The notes beneath the pieces are model-generated. The model ran no database searches. It was not told the origin of the DNA and saw only the letters and a program-made list of their open reading frames with translations. Shown piece by piece: positions 1-9,197 of a stretch of DNA of 36,191 nt. The translations under genes were made by a program, and so were the position numbers. This DNA comes from Syntrophaceae bacterium (GTDB lineage: Bacteria > Desulfobacterota > Syntrophia > Syntrophales > UBA2185). The stretch lies in NCBI GenBank assembly GCA_003142295.1, contig PLLV01000163.1:1-36191 (forward strand), written 5' to 3'. Each line of letters starts with the position of its first letter. The stretch's first letter is position 1.

Positions 1-777
1 ATTCCCACGGTAACTGGAACGGAAAACATCATGATGGCCGCCTGCCTGGCTGACGGGACTACGCTTCTGAAAAATGCCGCCATGGAGCCTGAGGTTGTCA
101 ATCTCGCCAATGTCTTGAACGGCATGGGGGCGAAGGTCACCGGGGCCGGCACGGACATAATCAGGATAGACGGCGTCGAGAAAATGCATCCCGTTGAAGC
201 CGCCGTTATTCCGGACAGGATCGAGGCAGGCACTTTCATGATTGCCGTGGGCATGACGGGCGGAGATGTCAGAATAATGGGATGTGAAGCCGTTCACGTC
301 GAAGCGTTGACCCAAAAGCTGAGAGATGCCGGAATGGAAATCACCCCCTTCGATGGGGGCATCCGAGCCGCGTCCAAGAAAAAGATAAAAAGTGTTGATA
401 TAAAAACACTCCCCTACCCGGGATTTCCCACTGACTTGCAGGCCCAGATGATGGCTCTAATGTCAGTGGCCAACGGCCTGAGCGTCATAACAGAGACGGT
501 TTTTGAAAACAGATTTATGCACGTGAGTGAATTGATGAGGATGGGAGCCGATATTCTGATTCATGGAAACAGCGCCATGGTAAAGGGAATCCCAAAACTC
601 AAAGGGGCCCCGGTCATGGCCACGGACCTCCGGGCCTCCGCTTCCCTGATCCTCGCGGGACTGGCGGCGGAAGGAAAGACGGAGCTGTCCAGGGTTTATC
701 ATATAGACAGGGGATACCAGGAAATCGAAAAGAAATTCGCCGCCATCGGCGCCAATATAAAAAGGGTTTCCGGCTAA
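1..777 (+). CDS. murA: UDP-N-acetylglucosamine 1-carboxyvinyltransferase (MurA), 5'-truncated by window edge
   Basis: Frame is open from base 1 ([52 protein letters not shown]...); MurA-typical motifs including [37 protein letters not shown]. Confidence 0.96.
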
Positions 778-778
778 G

Positions 779-2080
779 ATGAGAATTATCCGCACCGATA
801 AAGCCAGCTTCGAGAACATATTCCGGAAGATTAAAAATCGCGGCTGGTTCAATGAGGACATCTGGAGACAGGTGAAGATAATTGTGGAAGATGTCCGCAA
901 GAGAAAGGACAAAGCCCTTTTTACATATACGAAAAAGTTTGATAAGTGGATTCCGACTGCGGATACCATAGAAGTATCTTCTGCAGAAATAAAAAAAGCC
1001 GTAGCTACGGTCAAAGCGGAAGAGCTTGCGATCCTCGAGCTTTCAGCGAAGCGGGTGGAAAGATTTCATCGCAGACAGGTAATTAAAAACTGGTCTGTTT
1101 GTGATGAAGCGGGCATTGAACTGGGACAGCGCATATCGCCCTTGGAGCGCGTCGGCATCTATGCCCCCGGAGGTCTTGCCTCGTATCCCTCTACCGTAAT
1201 CATGGCGGCTGTTCCGGCAAAGATCGCGAGCGTTCCTGAAATCATCCTGGTTACACCCGCAAAAGACGGAAAATTGAATCCCTTGATAATTGCCGCTGCA
1301 AAACTGAGCGGCGTCACGCGTATATTCAAGATAGGAGGCGCCCAGGCCATAGCCGCTCTCGCAAACGGCACGGAATTAATACCAAGAGTGGATAAGGTCG
1401 TCGGCCCCGGCAACGCCTACGTAACGGCTGCCAAGATGATGGTTTACCAGTGGTGCTGGTGCGGAATCGACATGGCCGCCGGCCCCAGCGAGATTATTAT
1501 CATAGCGGACGCGACGGCAGATGCCTCTTATGTCGCTGCTGATCTCCTTGCCCAGGCCGAACATGATGAAATGGCAAGCGCCATTCTTCTCACCCCGCAT
1601 GAAGCCTTGGCCAGGAAGGTGGCCGCTGAAGTTGCTCTTCAATTAAATGGCCTGAAAAGAAAAGCCATTGCCTCACGCGCTCTGAAAGACTTCGGCGCCA
1701 TTATTGTAACCAGAGATATAGCGGAGGCGACAGAAATCGCCAACCGGTTCGCCCCGGAGCATTTGGAATTAATGGTCAGGCAGCCAAAGAAAATACTGGT
1801 TGAAATAAAACATGCCGGCGCCATTTTTCTGGGGCAGAATACACCGGAGACCCTCGGAGATTATATGGCAGGGCCCAATCATATTCTTCCCACAGGGGGA
1901 ACGGCAAGATTTTCATCTCCCTTGGGGGTTTACGACTTTGTGAAGCGAAGCAGTGTTCTTTTCTTCTCGAAAGAGTCCCTGCAAAAATACGGAAAGCGGG
2001 CGGCAAGATTTGCTGACATGGAGGGGCTTGAGGCGCACGGAAAGTCAATTACCGTAAGGATGTCGCCAAAAAAGCCTTGA
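779..2080 (+). CDS. hisD: Histidinol dehydrogenase
   Basis: 433 aa; HisD motifs (ERVGIYAPGGLASYPSTVIMAAVPAKIA, VDKVVGPGNAYVTAAK, AGPSEIIIIAD, ANRFAPEHLEL, NHILPTGGTARFSSPLGVYDF). Confidence 0.97.
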   Translation: MRIIRTDKASFENIFRKIKNRGWFNEDIWRQVKIIVEDVRKRKDKALFTYTKKFDKWIPTADTIEVSSAEIKKAVATVKAEELAILELSAKRVERFHRRQVIKNWSVCDEAGIELGQRISPLERVGIYAPGGLASYPSTVIMAAVPAKIASVPEIILVTPAKDGKLNPLIIAAAKLSGVTRIFKIGGAQAIAALANGTELIPRVDKVVGPGNAYVTAAKMMVYQWCWCGIDMAAGPSEIIIIADATADASYVAADLLAQAEHDEMASAILLTPHEALARKVAAEVALQLNGLKRKAIASRALKDFGAIIVTRDIAEATEIANRFAPEHLELMVRQPKKILVEIKHAGAIFLGQNTPETLGDYMAGPNHILPTGGTARFSSPLGVYDFVKRSSVLFFSKESLQKYGKRAARFADMEGLEAHGKSITVRMSPKKP

Positions 2081-2104
2081 CAAAAAGTCTCCGATGGCTA
2101 AGAT
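2077..2104 (+). promoter_or_regulatory. Candidate sigma70-type promoter for tRNA-Gly (TTGACA - 16 nt - TAAGAT), overlapping the hisD stop codon
   Basis: Perfect -35 hexamer TTGACA at 2077-2082 and TAAGAT at 2099-2104, about 58 nt before the tRNA. Confidence 0.45.
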
Positions 2105-2161
2105 GACCAGCGTTGTTCTGATCTGTATTTGTTTTCTTTTACTGTCTATGTTCTCTTCTGA

Positions 2162-2236
2162 GCGGGCGTAATTCAGCGGTAGAATGTCAGCTTCCCAAGC
2201 TGGACGTCGTGGGTTCGACTCCCATCGCCCGCTCCA
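2162..2236 (+). tRNA. tRNA-Gly (anticodon CCC), CCA encoded
   Basis: Complete cloverleaf: acceptor GCGGGCG/CGCCCGC, anticodon stem TCAGC/GCTGG with loop TTCCCAA (anticodon CCC), T arm GTGGG-TTCGACT-CCCAT, encoded CCA at 2234-2236. Confidence 0.96.
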
Positions 2237-2363
2237 TTTTATCCCTATCATTACAAATGCTCAGAAAAATTTCACGCCTCATTTTTCAGGGTCAGAACAG
2301 GGTCAATAATTTTCATCAGAAGTATATCAAAAGCATTGAATAAACATTCACTTTGACCATTAA

Positions 2364-3038
2364 CTAATCATCTTCGTCATCGTTTGGTAGCCTGTTTAAA
2401 GCCTCAAATCTTCTCCTCTCTCTTGACCTCATGATAGTCCATGAACGTTTCAGTTTGTTAAGTAATCTCATAGTAAGATATTTCTCAAGATCCAAAATAT
2501 CAATGGCATAGGTTCCTTTGAGAAATCCTAATGTGAGTAAGAGCAATGTATCATTAACCAATGTTATTTGTTTTTCTGCCACCTTGCTTTTGATCTTAAA
2601 TGGTGATTGAATTTTGCCATGTAGGTTTATCATACTATTTTTTCGAGGTAGTCCCACATATGCTGCATTCTGTTTAGACATCTCCATTTTGCCTTTAAAT
2701 ATTTCCTGTATCATCTTGCTGGAGTAATACTCATAATCAATGTGAAACCCTACAAAACAGTTTTGTTTCACGCGGTGGTTATAAATGCTCTTAATAATTT
2801 CCAGTTCTTGATCAGGTGTGAACCTTCCGTCGATTCTACTATGGTAAATAAAATCATCCAATATCTCATATTTTCCGAGTTCTTCGAGAGCGAGGATTGA
2901 CATATGATATGCTGATGGAGCTGAGCCTTTCTTATAAAGTAAGATTGAATCGAAATGCAATCTAAGAGCATTCTTAAATGCAAGTACCGCCATGCGTTCC
3001 ATTTTGCTAAGGTTAACATTTTTCATTTTCATTTCCAT
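2364..3038 (-). CDS. AbiV-family (HEPN-like) abortive infection protein, putative
   Basis: 224 aa; N-terminal pattern NALRLHFDSILLYKKGSAPSAYHMSILALEELGKYEIL resembles the AbiV/HEPN signature (helix with 'A..LAILALEELGK'), followed by YNHRVKQ. The gene is visibly more AT-rich than its surroundings. Confidence 0.75.
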   Translation of the reverse strand: MEMKMKNVNLSKMERMAVLAFKNALRLHFDSILLYKKGSAPSAYHMSILALEELGKYEILDDFIYHSRIDGRFTPDQELEIIKSIYNHRVKQNCFVGFHIDYEYYSSKMIQEIFKGKMEMSKQNAAYVGLPRKNSMINLHGKIQSPFKIKSKVAEKQITLVNDTLLLLTLGFLKGTYAIDILDLEKYLTMRLLNKLKRSWTIMRSRERRRFEALNRLPNDDEDD

Positions 3039-3062
3039 AGGAACTACTTTACGACACCATAC

Positions 3063-3732
3063 TTAAACTTTTTCTACCTTCGATTCATCAATCTTAATCA
3101 CCTTGCCCGTATCTTGATATATGCTCCGCAGCTCATCCGCTTCCATGAAATATCTATCAAATGCTTTATTCGCGCTGCGCACCGCCCTGATTAAAGCATG
3201 ATCTTCGATGAAGCTGACTATTTTCATAGCCCCTTGCATTTCTGGGCAGGTCAAGGGATCGACCTTGTATAGTCATGAAGCCGAAATTGGGTTCCGTGAG
3301 GGCGTAGGAAAATATCATCTCTCCCGAGGCGGCAAGGGGGAGATATTGGCGCTTCTGCTTCTCCGTTCCGAATAGTTCAATGCCTTTGATGCCGATGAAG
3401 AGGTGGGCAAGAAAAACAACTGCAGAGGACAAGTCCTGGGCCGAGATCTCTTCTACGAAGCGGATGCATTCGATAATGCCGACGCCCAACCCGCCGTAGG
3501 TTTCAGCAAGGCTGATCCCGAAGAAGCCCTTCTTTCTCATCTTCTGCAGTATCTCCCCGGGGATACGTCCTTCCTCTTCAATCTTCTGCGGGGAATGGTT
3601 TTTAAACATCTCCCGGTAGGATTGCAGCAGGGACTGAACCTTGTCCGAATCGCCTGGCATGCGGTAGGAATTAAAGGCCGTTTCGTCGAAGACGCCGTCG
3701 ACCATCTTCTCCATGAAACTGACCGATGCCAT
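3063..3732 (-). pseudogene. Acyl-CoA dehydrogenase remnant (N-terminal part fused out of frame to a probable C-terminal tail)
   Basis: Minus-strand start at 3732 with AGGAGG upstream; the N-terminal domain reads well (GFFGISLAETYGGLGVGIIECIRFVEEISAQDLSSAVVFLAHLFIGIKGIELFGTEKQKRQYLPLAASGEMIFSYALTEPN) but stops matching right after ALTEPN (normally followed by AGSD). Another frame (3254..3063) carries a helical tail EMQGAMKIVSFIEDHALIRAVRSANKAFDRYFMEADELRS. Confidence 0.7.
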
Positions 3733-3907
3733 ATCCTGCCTCCTTTCTCTTGCGACCATGTCCGCTGCATCTCATGGCGGAAGACAATCCATCGATCATT
3801 TATAAATTGAGTAATTCTTTTTGGACGCATCAAGTATAAGAGGTATGCATAGGAATTTCCACCTTTTTTAGTCAGGATTGTAATAATGATCATATACCTG
3901 CATCCGG

Positions 3908-3931
3908 CTGCCATCGGCCGCTCCATTTTTT
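3908..3931 (+). repeat. Imperfect direct repeat of the tRNA-Gly 3' end (candidate att-site remnant)
   Basis: CTGCCATCGGCCGCTCCATTTT (3908-3929) versus CTCCCATCGCCCGCTCCATTTT (2219-2240): 20 of 22 positions identical. Confidence 0.65.
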
Positions 3932-3949
3932 AAATCCGCCTCCTGATAT

Positions 3950-3982
3950 AAATCCCATTTTTCTCTTGCAATGGGGTTTTTT
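3950..3982 (+). terminator. Intrinsic terminator, probably the original tRNA-Gly terminator
   Basis: AAATCCCATT / AATGGGGTTT 10-bp stem (one T.G wobble) followed by TTTTTT, starting about 20 nt after the tRNA-end repeat. Confidence 0.65.
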
Positions 3983-3994
3983 ATATGTTAGAAA
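3966..3994 (+). promoter_or_regulatory. Candidate promoter for the rimP operon (TTGCAA - 17 nt - TAGAAA)
   Basis: Hexamer match with 17-nt spacing, about 30 nt upstream of the leader terminator. Confidence 0.35.
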
Positions 3995-4026
3995 TGCCGT
4001 GAAAATCATCGTGTACGTTAGTGATG

Positions 4027-4052
4027 AGTGGGCTGATGCCCACTTTTTTTTT
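4027..4052 (+). terminator. Leader terminator/attenuator upstream of rimP
   Basis: AGTGGGC-TGAT-GCCCACT perfect 7-bp hairpin immediately followed by a run of T, located before the first gene of the operon. Confidence 0.8.
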
Positions 4053-4069
4053 CCTAAAAGGCTGGCAAA

Positions 4070-4149
4070 AAAGGATGTACCATCGCTGCAGGGTCTGGCT
4101 TAGGCATGAGAGCGGTTATGCCAGGCGAGTCTGGCGCGATGCATCCTTT
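4070..4149 (+). promoter_or_regulatory. Candidate structured 5' leader element of rimP mRNA
   Basis: AAAGGATG (4070-4077)/CATCCTTT (4142-4149) continuing after a 3-nt bulge (TAC) into CATCGC (4081-4086)/GCGATG (4136-4141); internal hairpin GGCAT (4103-4107)/ATGCC (4118-4122). Confidence 0.5.
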
Positions 4150-4167
4150 ATTGATGTATTATAATAA

Positions 4168-4647
4168 ATGGCTGATATGTCACTACCATACCAGGAAAAG
4201 ATCAGGCAGCTCATTGAGCCCGTGATTGAATCTGAAGACATGGAGATCATCGATGTTGAATGCCTGAAAATGAAATTTCGGTGGTTGGTGCGGATTTACA
4301 TTGATAAGGAGGGAGGAGTCACGGTTGATGATTGTTCTGAAATCAGCAAACAGGTAGGTGACATCCTTGATGTTTATGATGTCCTTCGCGGCTCTTATAC
4401 GTTAGAGGTTTCTTCTCCGGGTCTGGACCGGCCTCTTACCAGGGACAAGGATTTCATTAAATACCGCGGATCTACCGTCCGCATCAAGACAGGCGAAAAA
4501 CTGGACGGCGTGAAAAATTTTCATGGGAAACTGAATGATTATCTGGATGAAAATGGCGCAAAGACTCTGATCGTCGATGTTTCGGGGAAGATTTATCGCA
4601 TACCACGAGATATGGTGGTTAAGGCACATCTGGTTTATGAATTTTGA
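4168..4647 (+). CDS. rimP: Ribosome maturation factor RimP
   Basis: 159 aa; IEPVIESEDMEIIDVECLK, RIYIDKEGGVTVDDCSEISKQVGDILDV, YTLEVSSPGLDRPL; directly upstream of nusA. Confidence 0.96.
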   Translation: MADMSLPYQEKIRQLIEPVIESEDMEIIDVECLKMKFRWLVRIYIDKEGGVTVDDCSEISKQVGDILDVYDVLRGSYTLEVSSPGLDRPLTRDKDFIKYRGSTVRIKTGEKLDGVKNFHGKLNDYLDENGAKTLIVDVSGKIYRIPRDMVVKAHLVYEF

Positions 4648-4668
4648 TGCAAATATGGAGGACTCTCA

Positions 4669-5931
4669 ATGTTACCAGAACTTAAACGTCTGATAGAGCA
4701 GATGGGTAAGGATAGAGGTATAGACAAAAGTGTCATTATAGAGGCACTGGAAACGGCCATGCTGACCGCTGCGCGGAAAAAATTGGGCCCCCAGGTCAAT
4801 ATCGAGGCCCACTACAACGAGGAAGTGGGAGAGGTTGAAGTATTTCAATTCAAAACCGTCGTAGACAAAGTACTGGAGCCTGATGTTCAGATTTCCTTAG
4901 CTGAGGCACGTCGAAGTTTGGATGAAGAAGCGGAAAGGGGAGACAGTATCGGAATTAAGATTGAAACAAACACCTTTGGCAGGATTGCCGTTCAGACTGC
5001 TAAACAAATAATCATTCAAAAAGTTAAAGATGCTGAGCGGGATAACGTTTATGATGAATACAAAGATAAGAAGGGCGAACTGGTCAGCGGCTTTGTGCAA
5101 AGATTCGACGGCGGAAATATTATCGTTAACCTCGGGCGGGCTGAAGGCGTGATACCCGCGGCGGAACAGATTTACAGAGAGACCTACAAACGGGGAGAGC
5201 GAATTCGGGCTTACGTGTGCGATGTAAAAAAAATATCCAAAGGACCTCAGATCATCCTCTCCAGGACCCATCCTGGTTTCCTCAGGGCGCTTTTTGAAGT
5301 GGAAGTGCCGGAGATATCCGAAGGTTTAATCGAAATTGTAAATGTTGCCAGAGAACCGGGAAAACGGACCAAGATTTCCGTTAGAACAAAGGATAAAGAT
5401 ATTGATCCGGTGGGTGCATGCGTCGGCATGAGAGGCTCCCGCGTGCAAAGCGTAGTGCAGGAATTGAAGGGAGAAAAGATAGACATTGTTCCCTATTCCG
5501 TCGATAACGCTACCTATGTCTGCAGTGCCCTCTCACCGGCCAAGGTTAACCGGGTTCTTATGGATGAGGACAGCCGTTCCATGGAAGTAATAGTCCCTGA
5601 CGATCAGCTCTCTTTAGCAATCGGGAAGAACGGACAGAATGTAAGGCTGGCGGTCAAATTGACGGGGTGGAAGATCGACGTTAAGAGTGAATCCATGGCT
5701 GCTTCACAGGAAGCAGAAGGATTCAAATCCCTCATTAAAATTCCCGGCATCGGCGAGGCCATGGCGGAGAAGCTTTACAATGAAGGCTTCAAGAGCATTG
5801 CCATGATCGCCACTACAGATACTGAGATGCTGTCAGCGATTCAGGGTGTGGGAGAAAAGAGCGCGTCACAATGGATTGAAGCGGCAGTTAAGATTATCGA
5901 TGAAGAGACAGCAGAACAGAAGAGCTCCTGA
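4669..5931 (+). CDS. nusA: Transcription termination/antitermination protein NusA
   Basis: 420 aa; S1 and KH domains (DPVGACVGMRGSRVQSVVQELKGEKIDIVPYS; LAIGKNGQNVRLAVKLTGWKIDVKSE), C-terminal HhH repeats. Confidence 0.97.
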   Translation: MLPELKRLIEQMGKDRGIDKSVIIEALETAMLTAARKKLGPQVNIEAHYNEEVGEVEVFQFKTVVDKVLEPDVQISLAEARRSLDEEAERGDSIGIKIETNTFGRIAVQTAKQIIIQKVKDAERDNVYDEYKDKKGELVSGFVQRFDGGNIIVNLGRAEGVIPAAEQIYRETYKRGERIRAYVCDVKKISKGPQIILSRTHPGFLRALFEVEVPEISEGLIEIVNVAREPGKRTKISVRTKDKDIDPVGACVGMRGSRVQSVVQELKGEKIDIVPYSVDNATYVCSALSPAKVNRVLMDEDSRSMEVIVPDDQLSLAIGKNGQNVRLAVKLTGWKIDVKSESMAASQEAEGFKSLIKIPGIGEAMAEKLYNEGFKSIAMIATTDTEMLSAIQGVGEKSASQWIEAAVKIIDEETAEQKSS

Positions 5932-6020
5932 GAGGGGGCGAAAATTGAGGGGAAAGACCTCAAAGACGAGCTTTATGAAAAGGCACATTTCTACAACCAT
6001 TACATGTGAGGGTCTCAAGA

Positions 6021-8729
6021 ATGTCTAAGAAAAGAGTCTACGAGTTAGCCAAGGAATTGGGTATCGATAGCAAGGAGCTGATATCTCGTTTGGAAAAATT
6101 CGGCATTGCCGTAAAGTCTCATTCGAGTACTCTGGAAGACGCAGATGTGGAGAAGATACAGAAGGAATTGCTATCAGGTGAACCACATGAAATGGTCGAG
6201 CAAAGAATAAAGTCCACAATCATAAGAAGGCGGGCGGTTCGTCCAGTTGCGGAAGAGATTATAGCAGAGCCTGTCGAGGCCGAAATTCCCGTAACGCCTG
6301 AAGAAAAGAAGATTGATTCAGCAGTCCCAAAAGAGGCTAAGAAAGAGAAGGCCGGCCCCAAAGAAGTACAGACAAAGGTGACCGCTCCTGCTGAAAAGGC
6401 GCCAAAGAAAACTGTTCCTGAGGAAGCAATGCCGCCTAAAGTTGCCAAGCCGGAAGAACCCGCCGTCAAAGACATAAAGGTGGAAAGCCAGACGAAGCCG
6501 GCTGATGCAGTTGAAGAAATTTCAAAGAAGCCCAAGAAGACGATTGAGTTGGTTGAAAAAAAGCCTGCACCTCCGTCAGCAACTCCTCCAGCGACCCCGG
6601 AAGCAAGAGAGGCGCCTCAAAGAGAGGATAAGAAAGAGGCAGTATCTGCTCAAGCACCCAAGGAAGCTGCTCTTGAGGTCAAGAAAGTGCCGGCTCAGAA
6701 GCCGGCACTAAAGATCGTAAAGGAAATCATCCCTCCCAAGGCGGGGGAAAAACCGGCTAAGTGGGATCCCGAAAAGGCCAAGATAAAGGGCAAAAAACCT
6801 GTTGAAGTCGTGATGGAAGAACTGCCATCTGCAAGGAAAAAGGCTTTTATCAAGAAACTCGTAGATAAGAAAGACAGGCGCGCGGACTCAGATAGAGAAG
6901 AGAGGGTTATTAAGTGGAAGGATGGAAAAAGGCAGGTCGCTGCCAAAATGAAAAAGACGGTCATTACCACCCCGAAGGCAATAAAAAGGAGGATAAAGGT
7001 GGGTGAAGTAATAACCGTCGGTGAGCTTGCCAAAAAAATGGGCGTTAAGGCGAGCGAAGTTATTAATAAGCTGATCGGACTCGGCTTGATGGTTACCATC
7101 AACCAGGCCATAGAGTCTGATGTTGCGACTCTCATTGCCGGCGAATTTGGATATCAGGTGGAATCAGTCGGAACTGAATATGATGAATCGCTCCAAAAAG
7201 TTGAGTCTCTTTCCGAAAATCTGACAACCAGGGCGCCTGTTGTAACAATAATGGGGCATGTTGACCATGGGAAAACTTCTCTTCTGGATGCCATAAGGCA
7301 GACCAATGTAATCGCCGGCGAGGTGGGGGGTATTACTCAAGCCATCGGGGCATACCATGTCCACATTAAAGATAGAGATATCGTTTTCCTCGACACACCG
7401 GGCCATGAAGCCTTCACAGCCATGAGGGCCAGGGGAGCCGATGTAACAGATATTGTTGTACTGGTAGTCGCGGCTGATGATGGCGTAAAGGACCAGACTA
7501 TAGAGGCCATCAATCATGCACGTGTTGCAGGAGTTCCCATAATCGTTGCCGTCAATAAGATAGACAAACCGGGGGCAGATCCGGGCAAAATCAAGCAGGT
7601 CCTCTCCGATTACAATCTCGTCTCGGAAGAATGGGGTGGTGATACCATATACTGCGAGGTATCCGCTAAGAAGAAACAGGGCATAGAAGAGCTTCTGGAA
7701 ATGATTCTTCTTCAGGCGGACGTCATGGACCTGCGTGCCGACCCCAACCGGTCCGCCCGTGGCGTTATCATCGAAGCAAAACTTGATCGTGGAAGCGGGC
7801 CTGTGGCGACCGTGCTCATCGAAGAAGGCACGCTGAAAGAGGGCGACGCCTTTGTCTCCAAAACGGAATTTGGCAAGGTTAGAGCGCTGATTAACGACCA
7901 GGGGGAGAGGGTGGAAGAGGTTGGACCGTCAATGCCGGTGGAAGTAATAGGGTTTTCAAGGGTCCCCCAAGTGGGTGCGGAGTTTATATGTGTGGAGGAT
8001 GAGAAAAAGGCCCGCAGCATTGGAGAATACTGGATAAGAAAAGAACGCGAACGGGAACTTTCCAAATCGTCAAAAATTACTCTCGAGCAATTATACCAAA
8101 AAATTAAAGAAGGGGTTAAGGAGCTCAACGTAATCATAAAAGGAGATGTGCAGGGCTCCATAGAGGCTATGACCGACGCCTTGAACAAACTAAGTACAGC
8201 CGATATCAAGCTTAAGATTATCCACAGTTCAACAGGCGCTATTACAGAAACGGATGTCATGCTGGCATCGGCATCCAACGCCATAATAATCGGGTTTAAC
8301 GTCAGACCGGATAGCAGGGTTACGGACCTCGCCGGACAAGAGGGCGTCGAAATCAAGTTATATGAAGTCATTTACGACGTTATTGCGGATGTGAAAGCTG
8401 CCATGGAAGGCCTCCTCGAACCTGTTTATAAGGAGACGGTAATTGGGCGAGCGGAAGTAAGAGAATTGTTCAAAGTACCAAAAATTGGGGCCATCGCCGG
8501 AAGCTATGTGACTGGTGGCAAGATTGCAAGAAATGCAAATCTCAAATTGGTACGAGAAGGGGTGCAGATTTACGATGGCAAGTTACTCTCCCTCAGGAGG
8601 TTCAAGGACGACGTCAAAGAAGTGATGGAAGGATTTGAATGTGGTATCGGAATAGAGGGCTTCAATGACATCAGAGTAGGTGATGTCATCGAGGCTTATA
8701 TTAATGAGCAAATAGAAAGAAAACTCTGA
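6021..8729 (+). CDS. infB: Translation initiation factor IF-2
   Basis: [29 protein letters not shown] start, long K/E/P-rich linker, GTPase domain [41 protein letters not shown]. Start at ATG 6021 preferred over GTG 6006. Confidence 0.97.
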
Positions 8730-8798
8730 GACAGCAACCAGGAGAAAAATGCGAAATTCTAAGAACCTAAGCAGTAAAAAATCCAGGGAAACGTTAAT

Positions 8799-8855
8799 AA
8801 TTTAGATATTGGGGTTTTACATTTGTTTGGAATTTCGGATTTAGAATTCATTTAA
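8799..8855. repeat. AT-rich intergenic segment resembling a dispersed repeat (unverified)
   Basis: TTTAGATATTGGGGTTTTACATTTGTTTGGAATTTCGGATTTAGAATTCATTTAAGATATGG: internally repetitive (TTTAGATATT / ATTTAGAATTC / ATTTAAGATATG) and low in GC within an otherwise compact operon. Confidence 0.3.
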
Positions 8856-8858
8856 GAT

Positions 8859-9197
8859 ATGGTTATAGGATCCGGCATTATAGATTTGTTTATCGTCGAA
8901 AGCAGGTCTCTGAAGGAAAAAAGAGGCATCCTGAACAGGATATTAAAACGGACCCAAAACGAGTTCAATATTTCTATTGCCGAAATCGGCCAGAATGATC
9001 ACTGGAAGAGGGCACAGATCGGTTTTAGCCTCGTAGGGAATGACAGGCGTTATATAAATGGAAAAATTGACCACATTCTGAGATTTGTCGACCGTCTTCA
9101 CCTGGCTGAAGTGTTGAATTCAAAAATTGAGATAACCAATCTCCCCGATTCGATGGACCACTTCGAATATAGCGAGGATAAGTATAATGAGTTTTAA
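8859..9197 (+). CDS. DUF503 family protein (YlxP-like)
   Basis: 112 aa; DLFIVESRSLKEKRGILNRILKRTQNEFNISIAEIGQNDHWKRAQIGFSLVGND matches the DUF503 pattern; infB-rbfA location. Confidence 0.9.
   Translation: MVIGSGIIDLFIVESRSLKEKRGILNRILKRTQNEFNISIAEIGQNDHWKRAQIGFSLVGNDRRYINGKIDHILRFVDRLHLAEVLNSKIEITNLPDSMDHFEYSEDKYNEF

Follow-up and report, generated by a model that had tools for sequence, protein, structure and literature searches.

Integrative elements that are targeted to tRNA and tmRNA genes by arm-binding tyrosine recombinases have been surveyed (PMC8138268). The locus described here resembles those elements in the duplication of the 3' end of the RNA gene, an integrase beside the target, accessory repeats at the end, and variable cargo including defence genes; it differs in being a 1.7-kb relic that holds only a stump of an integrase, and the family of that integrase differs as well, with the members tested mostly below the Pfam Phage_integrase cut-off. 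The event is of an ordinary kind and clearly documented; less ordinary are the integrase family, the fixed 11-bp period of the end repeats, and an apparent cargo slot.

The window, a 36,191-nucleotide stretch of DNA from a Syntrophaceae bacterium (genome G000, contig C176), was compared with three sister genomes of the same genus (G001, G002 and G003), five genomes of the same family (G004–G008) and further relatives, all of them fragmented assemblies. We consider it highly probable that a small integrative element once sat at the 3' end of tRNA-Gly(CCC) and that the segment 2241–3930 is what erosion has left of it. The features on which this reading draws are as follows.

2162..2236, plus strand: tRNA-Gly(CCC), the target gene (ARAGORN; Rfam tRNA, E=4.3e-13)
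2216..2240, plus strand: att copy in the tRNA 3' end (attL side), from the direct repeat and the overlap of the flanks in the G003 empty site
2237..2312, plus strand: element left end, common to G001 (76%) and G002 (71%)
2287..2305, plus strand: paired direct repeat CAGGGTCAGAA/CAGGGTCA with period 11, putative integrase arm site, in register with other left ends
2364..3038, minus strand: AbiV-like HEPN gene, 224 aa, cargo (PF18728, TIGR04498, PADLOC)
3063..3182, minus strand: C-terminal stump of a tyrosine integrase (NKAFDRYF...) including the catalytic tyrosine region, from a profile and alignment with relatives
3183..3272, minus strand: C-terminal fragment of a transposase (KVDPLTCPEMQGAMKIVSFIEDHALIRA), similar to a frame on G000 contig C207
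3280..3732, minus strand: what is left of an acyl-CoA dehydrogenase gene (the first 151 of 552 codons), complete in G001 and G002
3905..3929, plus strand: second att copy (attR side), 22/25 identical to the tRNA-Gly(CCC) 3' end
3966..3994, plus strand: promoter-like TTGCAA-17-TAGAAA ahead of rimP-nusA-infB, from the alignment of relatives; function predicted
4026..4054, plus strand: terminator-like leader hairpin with a T-run before rimP, from the alignment of relatives

The initial annotation had proposed an integration at the tRNA 3' end that inserted 2241–3930 and left a relic islet, and based this on a 20/22 match between 2219–2240 and 3908–3929. The match was confirmed and extends to 22/25 bp (2216–2240 vs. 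3905–3929), the second copy lying 1,689 bp downstream; elsewhere in G000 the best matches to the tRNA gene reached only 84% and 79%. When the downstream 3 kb were shuffled 1,000 times, the best ungapped match to the att 25-mer was 18/25, that is, 7 mismatches against the 3 observed. The empty site that the annotation had suggested looking for was present in G003 exactly at the repeat: window positions 1–2239 and 3905–9000 (bases 205–2442 and 2419–7521 of the G003 locus) are contiguous there and overlap only in the 24-bp repeat, and ...CCATTTCTTAAATCCGCCCCCTGATATAAAG stands directly 3' of the tRNA. The order from tRNA to rimP leader was the same in all five same-family genomes. A chance likeness, or a partial duplication of the tRNA without integration, would fit a second copy that is short and imperfect; however, the shuffles and the empty site rule out the chance match, and with an integrase stump inside the segment as well, we regard this explanation as a whole as having almost no likelihood. 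In a distant relative (L039:4873–6632, contig C46 of G045), the tRNA-Gly(CCC) 3' end is duplicated 1.65 kb downstream and encloses an AAA_14/DUF4143 gene, apparently an independent event at the same tRNA by another type of element.

The history first suggested, in which the tRNA was directly followed by its intrinsic terminator at 3950–3982, stood in one part and failed in the other. The tRNA does adjoin the downstream block in G003–G008, but that block is read here as a promoter and rimP leader and not as a terminator of the tRNA: the 3950–3982 hairpin was absent from the output of the terminator scan, its stem is not conserved in relatives, and it was rejected as the tRNA's own terminator on that ground. 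The motif TTGCAA-17-TAGAAA and the terminator-like hairpin at 4026–4045, with its T-run, were largely conserved in relatives, and we infer that 3966–3994 would act as the promoter of rimP-nusA-infB and 4026–4054 as a leader terminator. What the insertion moved away from the tRNA was this block and not any terminator demonstrated to belong to the tRNA. The leader (3985–4056) carries an invariant CATC...GATG stem beside a GTGGGC/GCCCAC hairpin and T-run in ten genomes; since all hairpin pairs are invariant, covariation is uninformative. An Rfam search of 2100–4300 returned the tRNA only and no known RNA leader before rimP, and the leader is possibly an undescribed attenuator.

The segment had been described as lacking an integrase, a statement that needs correcting because the frame 3063–3182, just upstream of the AbiV-like gene, retains the tyrosine region of an integrase family. 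Many genomes of the order encode ~410-aa proteins whose C-terminus is matched by a profile of this frame, and the frame corresponds to the last ~40 codons of an integrase that is intact in relatives; G001 and G004 have the frame as well, again upstream of the cargo. Readings of it as an antitoxin or a small conserved protein were discarded, as it is an integrase C-terminus. Judged by their sequences, the ~410-aa proteins are tyrosine integrases: the members tested gave weak, consistent matches to the Pfam Phage_integrase and SAM-like core-binding domains, mostly below cut-off; the Int domain was the sole match among solved structures; and the family alignment (A3) contains the expected R, K, R and Y positions, together with an N-terminal Cys/His-rich segment. 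NCBIfam gave no match for the two members searched, and an intact integrase of the family had no match in the catalogued phage and plasmid collections; two relatives lie on contigs classed as viral. The family appears to be undescribed, and it was found in 32 of 396 genomes sampled across the phylum.

At nearly all loci with an RNA gene in view, a tRNA or tmRNA gene converges on the integrase, and 1–100 bp separate the 3' end of this gene from the integrase stop codon. The window stump departs from this spacing, lying ~830 bp from the tRNA with the AbiV-like gene between them; an intact integrase at another locus (L195) is likewise distant, 789 bp from its tRNA. A second copy of the RNA 3' end occurs 2.6–7.9 kb away at seven loci of the family and is perfect over 20 bp in six of them. 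Among the genomes compared, no intact member was seen at tRNA-Gly(CCC). G000 itself has an intact member on contig C1 (L142:2000–3338), next to part of a tmRNA 3' end; on the other side of this integrase stands another period-11 pair of different sequence (GGGGGTATC twice), and the locus looks like two elements in tandem. The elements examined combine the integrase with other genes, including weak matches to replication initiators and, in one (L129), a cytosine methylase and a Vsr nuclease. In four complete elements (L128, L131, L134 and L135) a second large protein is encoded upstream of the integrase, in some of them with a weak match to replication initiators, in which they may be likened to integrating plasmids.

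In complete members of the family, two short direct repeats with a period of 11 bp begin about 50 bp beyond the RNA gene, and several members have a like pair ~61–73 bp inside the right end. The window has such a pair of 8-bp repeats starting 50 bp 3' of the tRNA. A run of at least seven identical bases at period 11 was found in 31 of 36 left ends (the window included), whereas any other period tried gave at most 2 and 300 shuffled sets at most 4. The repeat sequence varies among elements and the spacing is constant, as expected for arm-type sites read by each element's own integrase; the pair at 2287–2305 is probably such an arm site, with integrase binding predicted, and its register marks it as what we take to be a genuine element end. 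Such pairs are not unique to this family: three tmRNA loci (L221, L222 and L242) have pairs at +36 to +38, at least two of which adjoin an integrase-like gene of another type. The left-end motif could possibly also be the tail of a second integrase, as the minus strand reads KIIDPVLTLKNEA followed by a stop, but a DNA repeat explains the motif equally well. Near the right end (3785–3904) no arm-type repeat pair was found, which may reflect decay or a different right end.

The AbiV-like gene claimed for the segment was confirmed at 2364–3038 on the minus strand, with matches above the family cut-offs in Pfam (PF18728, E=2.4e-14, 54.2 bits, cut-off 27.1) and NCBIfam (TIGR04498, E=5.4e-12, 46.2 bits, cut-off 27) and a PADLOC AbiV match at E=2.8e-4. 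The AbiV family belongs to the HEPN clan (PMC3710099); the window gene is like its members in being a stand-alone gene with a domain match covering positions 4–149 of 155 in the Pfam model, and differs from them in its distant sequence; a role in phage defence is predicted. The gene looks intact and may still work in defence. It lies between the integrase stump and the arm repeats, a slot that is filled by other genes in G001 and, at the tmRNA, in G004 (a DndB-like gene); the arrangement in G002 is probably alike, its contig ending in a possible stump. The slot is also occupied beside a whole integrase at L195 (tRNA-Arg, repeats, an 84-aa gene and the full integrase), which makes a one-element reading natural, and L242 has a 137-aa frame between its repeats and an integrase of the other type. 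Among three sister species the slot at the orthologous tRNA-Gly site differs in content, holding three unrelated genes (AbiV-like, DUF2971 and one without assignment), which suggests repeated replacement of cargo. We offer tentatively, as an idea that could well prove wrong, that the family uses the gap that separates the integrase stop codon from the end repeats as a slot for cargo, in which single, often defence-like genes lodge and are repeatedly replaced at a fixed chromosomal site, for example when a new element integrates and integrase 3' ends then recombine. The G004 tmRNA locus (L074 and L125, contig C112) reads tmRNA, repeat pair, DndB/DGQHR-like gene, a 255-aa gene without family match and integrase stump, with a second stump some 3 kb further on, and is an array of remnants.

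The right part of the segment ties the window to its sisters. The decayed acyl-CoA dehydrogenase that had been noted there was borne out: 151 of 552 codons are left, the remainder having been lost by internal deletion. Frame 3183–3272 is similar to the C-terminal stretch of a protein from G000 contig C207 and may be IS91-like, as such ends occur in IS91-type transposases. Segment 3279–3904 is 86–87% identical to G001 and G002, and the flanks are 89% identical. In both genomes the first ~75 bp 3' of the tRNA correspond to those of G000 at the identities given for the left end, with other genes beyond: a DUF2971 gene takes the place of AbiV in G001 and a protein without family assignment in G002. 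Their right island parts are on separate contigs that run into rimP. Since the left and right contigs of G001 share 129 bp, the island of this genome can be read end to end, in the order tRNA, DUF2971 gene, integrase stump, caspase-like gene, CHAT-domain gene, 552-aa acyl-CoA dehydrogenase and rimP. The right att copy is more decayed in G001 and G002 (15/25, counted by hand), and their left ends and stumps, weakly alike and with a short stump in G002, are compatible with inheritance as well as with separate acquisition. On this comparison the window islet is best read as a shrunken form of a larger island common to G001 and G002. A transposase-like end lies inside the DUF2971 gene on one G001 contig (L072:1–255, contig C53) and is absent from the overlapping contig, perhaps reflecting a mixed population or an assembly effect.

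The repeat beyond chance, the empty site at this repeat, the integrase C-terminus inside the segment, the period-11 pair at the family offset, and the homology of the right part with G001 and G002 at an identity near that of the flanks are all directly visible in the DNA. Together with the position of intact members next to tRNA and tmRNA genes and the RNA 3' end copies at seven family loci, they support the proposed integration. An element with a tyrosine integrase of the stump's family would have recombined into the 3' end of tRNA-Gly(CCC), restoring the tRNA from the element's own copy and pushing the old 3' end and the rimP promoter downstream. The left end with its paired repeats would have survived, and later deletion of the integrase body and most of the acyl-CoA dehydrogenase would have left the AbiV-like gene between the repeats and the last integrase codons. 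That this integrase family made the insertion is probable. The element is presumably no longer self-mobile; as the integrase is truncated, neither excision nor transfer is expected. Cis-mobilizable elements are lone att-flanked remnants without an integrase, and the segment is like them in having att on both sides and no working integrase; it differs in its decayed right end without arm repeats, and so mobilisation in trans is not indicated.

Four points weigh against this reading: the right end without arm repeats, unlike that of several complete members; the occurrence of the repeat pair outside the family; the lack of an intact member at tRNA-Gly(CCC) among the genomes compared; and the fragmented state of all these assemblies. 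A history of two or more nested insertions, in which the acyl-CoA dehydrogenase and right att copy belong to an older island, the left end and AbiV to a younger element of the integrase family that arrived at the same tRNA, and recombination at integrase 3' ends later fused the two, is a serious rival because of that right end and the two integrase stumps in the G001 island; the G004 tmRNA array also has two. In addition, the left parts of G001 and G002 are less alike (76%) than their right parts (93–98%), although their left-flank identity is also lower (89%), so that the 76% is not decisive. On the other side, no att copy or repeat pair lies between AbiV and the stump, and G001, G004 and, there with an intact integrase, L195 show the order of stump, cargo and left end again, which one element explains more simply. 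We judge nested insertion to fall somewhat short of an even chance. The timing of the gain is a separate matter. In the flank tree G000 groups with G003, and thus the simplest history is an insertion before their split and a precise loss from G003. Alternatively, G003 never had the island and G000 gained it separately after the split, its likeness to G001 and G002 reflecting a related donor; the emptiness of G003 in spite of its sister position and the slightly greater divergence of the acyl-CoA dehydrogenase segment than of the flanks are in keeping with this. We find it unlikely, as position and contents are alike in G000, G001 and G002, the divergence is near that of the flanks, and one gain with one precise loss is simpler.

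With the eroded element at tRNA-Gly(CCC), a guess made from raw sequence becomes a documented chromosomal event. Its signature, an RNA gene 3' end, short repeats of period 11 about 50 bp further on and an integrase stop codon facing the RNA gene, offers a simple means of spotting worn-out islands, including those that hold no integrase. In about 8% of the genomes sampled from the phylum, the integrase family points to small integrative elements, whose cargo includes a methylase/Vsr pair and AbiV-like and DndB-like genes.
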